A stretch of 64,000 nucleotides of DNA, from assembly GCA_022567155.1 (NCBI GenBank), contig JADFHN010000009.1:1-64000 (forward strand), given 5' to 3'. The DNA comes from Bacteroidota bacterium. GTDB taxonomy: Bacteria; Bacteroidota; Bacteroidia; Cytophagales; Cyclobacteriaceae. Made by a program: the position numbers and the translations under genes. This document shows positions 22,127 through 22,554 of this stretch, in pieces. Positions within the stretch are counted from its first letter, which is position 1; each line of letters starts with the position of its first letter. Below the pieces are notes generated by a model. It searched no databases. It saw only the letters and a program-made list of their open reading frames with translations, and was not told where the DNA came from.

Positions 22127-22479
22127 GCGGAGAGAGGGGGACTGACTACGCTAAAGCTTCGTCAGTTAAAATTCTTTTCTTTAGGATAGCTTTCCCTGAT
22201 CCTGTTTTAAAGTATTTCTCCAATTCCCTTGCCTTAGCCTCCGTTCGAACGGCAACATATGCTTCCAATATAAGGGGCATATATGGCTTTGTGGACTTAG
22301 TCTCTCCCCTATTGTGATCATCCAATCTCTTTTCAACATTATTGGTAGAACCAATATATTGATAACTTGATTCTATACTTCTAATTACATAAACATACCA
22401 CATGTGAAAGAACTTAAATTACTATTAACGTTTGGCCTGCCAGACGAAGCCTTGGCGTAGTCTGGCGGAGAGAGGGGGA
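22127..22479. mobile_element. GIY-YIG mini-element bounded by copied tRNA-Ser end
   Basis: The 15-bp 3' end of tRNA-Ser (GCGGAGAGAGGGGGA on the plus strand) occurs at 22465-22479 and again at 22127-22141. Between the copies, about 320 bp holds one GIY-YIG nuclease gene. Just inside each copy is a 24-bp terminal sequence, at 22142-22165 and 22441-22464, which are imperfect inverted repeats of one another (core GACGAAGC.TT.GCGTAGTC). This is the arrangement expected if a small element entered at the tRNA end and duplicated it. Confidence 0.6.
22146..22403 (-). CDS. GIY-YIG nuclease superfamily protein, stand-alone
   Basis: This 85-residue protein is one GIY-YIG domain. The signature tyrosines occur as WYVYVIRS and YQYIGST, followed by the Arg in VEKRLDDHN and the Glu in ARELEKYFK. 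Family members cleave or nick DNA, and several are homing nucleases. The last seven residues (TDEALA region) and the stop codon are encoded by the terminal repeat at 22142-22165, so gene and repeat evolved together. It lies between tRNA-Pro and tRNA-Ser, reading in the same direction as both. All expected catalytic residues seem present. Whether it mobilises its own element is inference. Confidence 0.88.
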   Translation of the reverse strand: MWYVYVIRSIESSYQYIGSTNNVEKRLDDHNRGETKSTKPYMPLILEAYVAVRTEAKARELEKYFKTGSGKAILKKRILTDEALA

Positions 22480-22554
22480 TTCGAACCCCCGGTACCCGGT
22501 AAAAGGTACGGCAGTTTAGCAAACTGCTGGTTTCAGCCACTCACCCACCTCTCC
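22466..22554 (-). tRNA. tRNA-Ser (anticodon GCT)
   Basis: A class II tRNA with a long variable arm. The acceptor GGAGAGG pairs with CTCTCC, the anticodon loop is TTTGCTAAA in stem CAG/CTG, the variable arm lies around GTACC...GGTAC, and the T-arm is GGGGGTTCGAATCCCCC. The discriminator is G and CCA appears to be encoded just beyond (22463-22465). Its 3' end is the sequence duplicated at 22127-22141. Confidence 0.93.

Follow-up and report, generated by a model that had tools for sequence, protein, structure and literature searches.

Tyrosine-integrase elements use the 3' end of a tRNA gene as their attB site, restore the tRNA on integration and leave a repeat of its tail at their far end. Nucleases are also found in such neighborhoods: SegB is a phage GIY-YIG homing gene that lies beside tRNA genes and spreads via DNA breaks and their repair, and the related system I-TevI has a separate DNA-binding domain. 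In fungal mitochondria, mobile ORFs carry the 3' end of the gene they target, as at Allomyces atp6 and Glomus atp6, atp9, cox2 and nad3 (PMC3630166). One copy of the gene end restores the gene and the displaced native copy lies downstream, and horizontal transfer has been inferred for these elements, of which the one at Glomus atp9 has an endonuclease ORF of the GIY-YIG type (PMC3630166).

The locus described here lies in the window, i.e., the whole stretch of 64,000 nucleotides of Bacteroidota DNA that was analyzed. Read along the minus strand, it consists of tRNA-Ser(gct), a hairpin, a GIY-YIG ORF, an inverted hairpin, a copy of the tRNA tail, native flanking sequence and tRNA-Pro (Table 1), with the ATG of the GIY-YIG gene 60 nt past the end of tRNA-Ser. 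The tail 15-mer GCGGAGAGAGGGGGA is present as exact copies at both places named by the first-pass annotation, and a whole-genome search found exactly these two copies in the 4.09-Mb genome. The same annotation had noted one 85-codon GIY-YIG gene between the repeats, and it is indeed the only ORF of at least 60 codons there; no integrase or site-specific recombinase is present within the unit, nor did a domain search of it detect a DDE or HUH transposase domain. The whole element is ~340 bp in size and the nuclease is its sole gene.

Table 1. Features of the tRNA-Ser locus, in window coordinates.
Feature	Position	Strand	Basis
tRNA-Ser(gct), target gene, intact	22463..22554	minus	ARAGORN
tRNA-Ser 3' tail TCCCCCTCTCTCCGC, tRNA-side direct repeat	22465..22479	minus	sequence search
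Upstream hairpin GCCAGACTACGCCAAGGCTTCGTCTGGC, immediately 3' of the tRNA, 28 nt	22439..22466	minus	stem conserved and covarying in relatives
Stand-alone GIY-YIG nuclease gene, 85 codons, tRNA-oriented	22146..22403	minus	ORF call and profile
Downstream hairpin ACTGACGAAGCTTTAGCGTAGTCAGT, inverted counterpart of the upstream hairpin; C-terminal codons and TAG inside	22141..22166	minus	folding
Distal tRNA-Ser tail copy, either displaced native tail or target duplication	22127..22141	minus	sequence comparison
Native flank AGTATATTTTATAGTTTATT 3' of the tail copy; kept after the tail in the same-genus genome G001	22107..22126	minus	comparison with G001
tRNA-Pro, beyond the native flank	22031..22106	minus	window annotation

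The encoded protein matched PF01541 at 62.1 bits in a profile search (curated cut-off 22.6, E = 6e-17), and Tyr16, Gly18, Arg26 and Glu62 were invariant in an alignment of 32 rows. With a score above the cut-off and its catalytic residues retained, it is a member of this family. The fold was predicted with confidence (pLDDT 93), and Foldseek placed the branched-DNA nuclease Slx1 among the nearest solved folds, with weak E-values. Domain search and fold prediction recognized the GIY-YIG domain alone and no separate DNA-binding module in the 85 aa, and for this reason we did not file the protein as a classical GIY-YIG homing enzyme.

The sequences just inside the two tail copies are mutually inverted (GCCAGACGAAGCCTTGGCGTAGTCTGGC, 22439-22466 on the plus strand, versus ACTGACGAAGCTTTAGCGTAGTCAGT, 22141-22166 on the minus strand). 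Inverted repeats at these positions had been proposed from the first reading of the sequence, as had the coding of the nuclease C-terminus and stop by the left one. Both proposals stood: each repeat additionally folds into a hairpin, and the downstream hairpin codes for TDEALA followed by TAG. Each hairpin shares 1-2 nt with its tail copy, the upstream one starting within the last two bases of the tRNA (GC-NNNAC..GTNNN-GC), and both are more stable than shuffled sequences (z about -3.6 on the coding strand). Genome-wide, the pattern ACGAAGC-N(0-25)-GCGTAGT occurs only at the two ends of the element. No extra copies of the element were found in its own genome, where the hairpin pair and the 15-mer are each unique to this locus.

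Comparison of the relatives described below revealed that the stem bases vary widely from locus to locus while pairing persists. In the upstream stem 47 of 56 pairs were formed among distinct arms (permuted maximum 42), a count lowered by rows L014, L018 and L019, which were mis-parsed by the script; in the downstream stem the count was 52 of 65 (permuted maximum 46). In each case 0 of 10,000 permutations were as good. Codon use cannot account for the downstream pairing because much of the right arm lies beyond the stop codon. The hairpins delimit the ends of the element, and may either bind the nuclease or act in the transcript to shield the tRNA 3' end so that it is processed normally.

Hairpins of this kind were also observed in other settings. 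In L094 the tRNA-Ser tail is followed by an upstream hairpin on its own, AACTACGCTAAAGCTTCGTTTGGC, and neither a gene nor a second tail is present, as if the hairpin were a remnant left after loss of the remaining element. In L011 and L023, local hairpin arrays with a TGCAGGCAA-type spacer were present 3' of tRNA-Ser and resemble REP-type expansion.

A scan of species genomes yielded a sample of 40 loci of the same protein clade. The hosts belong to Bacteroidota, Ignavibacteriota, Chlorobiota, Balneolota, Omnitrophota, Armatimonadota and further phyla, including Chloroflexota, Planctomycetota, Lentisphaerota and several candidate phyla, and one is a Bradyrhizobium. The first-pass annotation had proposed looking for stand-alone GIY-YIG genes next to tRNAs elsewhere, and such an association was found: at 35 of the 40 loci a same-strand tRNA ended at most 400 bp 5' of the GIY-YIG gene. 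At 31 of these the tRNA was tRNA-Ser (four anticodons), and tRNA-Asn, -Asp, -Ala and -Thr accounted for one locus each. The density of tRNAs was 2.5 per kb in the 400 bp 5' of the gene versus 0.08 per kb in the other flanks. The top-scoring matches in a phylum sample likewise lay 3' of tRNA-Ser, with two at tRNA-Met, although this sample overlaps with that of the species genomes and the two are not independent (possible double counting, e.g., L132/L011, L133/L022, L135/L024 and L140/L035). The other small GIY-YIG genes in the window's genome belong to other clades, and three of them lie near tRNA-Met, -Thr and -Ser(tga).

Across the elements the tail copy is 13-17 bp long. It equals its own tRNA at 13-14 of 14 positions in 21 of the 33 tRNA-Ser loci, the copies at the remainder being decayed or lost. 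The summed match to the own tRNA was 377. None of 10,000 permutations came as high, their mean being 330 and the highest of them 351. At the tRNA-Asp locus (L040), the downstream copy is that of the tRNA-Asp tail. The repeat is therefore set by the site rather than being an invariant end of the element. As to whether the terminal repeats are shared among copies at different tRNAs, the hairpins are common to them and the tail copy is that of the local tRNA. Both ends of these elements bear the tRNA 3' end as a direct repeat, a feature by which tRNA-targeting integrative elements are recognized.

These features also bear on the main rival to homing repair, a transposase-like action on the hairpins. 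The GIY-YIG protein would then be a hairpin-specific transposase that recognizes both inverted hairpins as cruciforms or single strands, excises the element and inserts it into the tRNA tail via staggered nicks, fill-in of which would give the 13-17-bp duplication. Terminal hairpins that are inverted and conserved in structure, beyond sequence alone, are in keeping with this, as are tail copies that act like target-site duplications, at tRNA-Asp included, and the placing of Slx1, a nuclease of branched DNA, among the nearest folds (at weak E-values). However, the partial tRNA copies of sister clades are 20-44 nt long, unlike a fixed-length duplication, and no GIY-YIG transposase of such a type is, to our knowledge, known in bacteria. 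Overall, we regard this explanation as unlikely.

Comparison of filled sites with sites lacking this gene gave information on the boundaries of the element. In G001, a genome of the same genus, the same tRNA-Ser is followed by a different, non-coding insert of ~145 bp, then by the tail copy and then by AGTACATATTATAGTTTATTCGGGG, which matches the window flank AGTATATTTTATAGTTTATTCGGGG. As another insert is held there between the same tails and flank, the boundaries are exact and the far tail and flank are native. The comparison included 28 tRNA-Ser(gct) loci of the family that lack this GIY gene. At 24 of them there was no second tail; the other four had mini-inserts like that of G001 (L083, L084 and L092) or a tandem tRNA-Ser/tRNA-Pro array (L085). 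A more direct comparison was available in a sister clade. The filled tRNA-Glu site of G001 consists of the flank, tRNA positions 1-37, a hairpin, the GIY gene and a full tRNA, and at the empty site, in the window's genome, a single intact tRNA-Glu follows the same upstream flank. This is a direct empty/filled pair within a genus, in which insertion turns one copy into two and a complete tRNA is kept. It is through this pair that presence/absence polymorphism at a fixed site, the mark of a free-standing homing gene, was observed. The comparison of empty and filled sites that had been suggested at the outset came out in favor of the element, through the 24 loci and the tRNA-Glu pair; at tRNA-Ser itself no strictly empty same-genus site was found, the one site found (G001) being occupied by another insert.

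Inserts lacking a GIY gene, ~150 bp long and with the same tail-copy architecture, were observed at tRNA-Ser in L083, L084, L092 and L117. The duplication therefore need not stem from this nuclease, and such inserts could be non-autonomous riders. A second mini-insert is present in the window itself, 3' of tRNA-Pro (21875-22030, minus), as a non-coding, structured stretch of ~140 bp. After it comes AATCCTGCACCCCGAC, which repeats the tRNA-Pro tail AATCCTGCCGCCCCGAC almost exactly, and the right end of the insert (GGATCA...TAATCC plus tail) resembles the non-coding tRNA-Ser inserts of the same four loci. In L081, L101 and L102, ORFs of ~111-116 aa were observed directly 3' of tRNA-Ser(gct), with no tail copy; by eye these resemble four-helix-bundle/23S-intervening-sequence proteins (MFDFEKLEVYQ...). 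They were considered as members of a shared tail-duplicating class at tRNA-Ser and rejected, as no tail copy is present there.

The variety of inserts raises the possibility that the GIY-YIG gene is a passive passenger. tRNA ends would then be general hot spots at which it and other small inserts merely accumulate, the tail copies having arisen by replication slippage, recombination or an unrelated integration system. That the boundaries at the same tRNA-Ser are common to different inserts, some of them GIY-free (L083, L084, L092 and L117), is consistent with this, and the four-helix-bundle-like ORFs (L081, L101 and L102) occur at tRNA-Ser too. Yet in many phyla the same protein clade is found at tRNA-Ser tails together with the same hairpins and without exception in the orientation of the tRNA, its catalytic residues are invariant and the unit has no integrase, and we consider an explanation of this kind quite improbable. 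Two further candidates were rejected. For a group I intron with a GIY-YIG ORF, Rfam found only tRNAs in L003 and the tRNA is intact; for the remnant of an integrase-type island, there is no other gene in the unit and the minimal form recurs across many phyla.

Neither phylum nor anticodon shows clear clustering on a tree of 32 proteins, which has low support and a short alignment behind it. The scatter fits transfer between genomes and switching among tRNA-Ser genes, of which it is suggestive only. A phage or plasmid vehicle was rejected, as searches of IMG/VR, INPHARED and PLSDB, representing viral-contig, phage and plasmid collections, found no close relative. The distribution of the gene is also relevant to a possible host function, in which the nuclease would mature or regulate the co-transcribed tRNA, and the hairpin and tail copy would be regulatory RNA. 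The gene does lie near the tRNA in the same orientation, and the hairpin stem starts in the last tRNA bases. Against this, the presence of GIY-YIG genes is patchy (86 of 296 genomes in the phylum sample at E <= 1e-12), there are decayed copies with early stops (L034, L038 and L044) and, in L163, a tandem array, and isoacceptors are switched and phyla scattered. These are signs of a selfish element, and a host function appears very improbable.

Overall, the feature is real and general, and the comparative evidence says that the element probably moves. Our preferred reading, to which we give a probability of roughly 0.6, is that it is a selfish, tRNA-targeted mini-element of ~340 bp that inserts by nuclease-induced repair and spares the tRNA. 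We infer from the sequences that the nuclease drives this movement. Insertion would occur at the 3' ends of tRNA genes, mainly tRNA-Ser, in the orientation of the tRNA. The nuclease would break an empty tRNA gene at or near its tail, and the broken end would be templated on a filled copy, pairing with it through the tRNA body at one flank and through the tail copy at the other. After repair the element would lie between a complete tRNA and a tail copy of 13-17 bp. As the tail copy would supply the far-side homology, it would be a portable arm suited to every tRNA of the type in question, regardless of the sequence downstream. Break-and-repair copying would explain why the orientation is constant, why the repeat matches its target, why the tRNA stays intact and how tandem arrays arise. 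Three points count against nuclease homing: the filled tRNA-side junction retains the whole tRNA, so that the absence of re-cutting is left unaccounted for; the protein lacks a separate DNA-binding module; and GIY-free inserts have the same tail copies. The initial interpretation of a minimal element that targets tRNA ends and rebuilds the tRNA largely holds, and the relatives, hairpins, tail copies and sister-clade empty site agree with it.

The association with tRNAs extends beyond this clade. Among 53 lower-scoring GIY-YIG loci, most of them from the phylum search, 36 had a tRNA or tmRNA at most 600 bp away, and at all 36 one such gene shared the strand of the GIY-YIG gene. A partial tRNA copy of at least 11 nt was present at 29 of the 53. 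Two layouts recurred: a full tRNA, the GIY gene and a 3' part copy (Leu, Asn, tmRNA, Ser), or a 5' part copy (often nt 1-22), the GIY gene and a full tRNA (Arg, Ser, Cys). Partial tRNA copies often carried a small palindrome. L163 (G331:C1:119100-123100) consists of 5.3 head-to-tail units of 450 bp with 98% identity, each containing the 3' end of a tRNA-Leu as well as a GIY-YIG gene. We tentatively hypothesize, at somewhat less than even odds, that these loci could represent an unrecognized superfamily of nuclease-only mini-elements colonizing bacterial tRNA and tmRNA genes. Each of its several clades would favor a particular tRNA and a particular place of cutting (3' tail, D-arm or anticodon arm) and would in every case rebuild a complete tRNA. 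The elements would be bounded by structure-conserved hairpins recognized by a small Slx1-like GIY-YIG enzyme, with a mobility that is neither classical homing nor transposition.

Other arrangements were observed among the wider loci. GIY-YIG genes were present 3' of tmRNA in L066, L069, L074, L148, L150, L154 and L196, and in at least one of these, L196, 18 nt from near the 3' end of the tmRNA are repeated downstream. L118 (G001:C73:2000-3300) has tandem tRNA-Pro 5' copies with a hairpin, CCCCGCCTTGGCGGG, in place of the anticodon arm; one 5' copy is followed by a GIY-YIG gene, and an intact tRNA-Pro lies downstream.

Stand-alone GIY-YIG genes are common in the phylum and are usually annotated by domain name alone. 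A single explanation, that they are minimal parasites of tRNA genes, may apply to most of those sampled, and would account for partial tRNA copies and tRNA-end repeats that otherwise confuse annotation. With two hairpins, a single enzyme of 85 aa and a homology arm of 15 bp, the system is compact and testable, and it is relevant to the question of how essential genes can be occupied by selfish DNA without damage. Such elements are apparently a widespread and undescribed kind of minimal mobile element; we found no account of them in bacteria in the open-access literature.

Comparison with known systems revealed both likenesses and differences. As in tyrosine-integrase elements, the tRNA 3' end is targeted and restored and a direct tail repeat is present at the far end; unlike those, the element has no integrase, only ~340 bp and one nuclease gene. 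Tiny units, hairpin ends and local hairpin arrays (L011 and L023) are shared with IS200/IS605 and REP/RAYT, whereas the nuclease here is not of the HUH type, the hairpins are inverted rather than direct, and a target-end duplication is present. T4-like phages have free-standing homing endonucleases of the GIY-YIG type (SegB and I-TevI), which are similar in being nucleases beside tRNA genes that spread by breaks and repair. We know of no duplicated tRNA end or terminal hairpins described for those phage genes, in contrast to the element here, which has both and has no close relative in phage or IMG/VR collections. The nearest precedent in logic is provided by the fungal mitochondrial endonuclease elements that carry target-gene ends. 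Those, too, have an endonuclease ORF at the 3' end of a gene together with a duplicated end, a likeness of architecture in the sense of "works like" only. They differ in that the fungal elements reside in mitochondrial protein genes and have foreign, diverged gene ends and larger ORFs, whereas the element described here resides in bacterial tRNA genes and has a 13-17-bp tail of the local tRNA, paired inverted hairpins and a protein of 85 aa.
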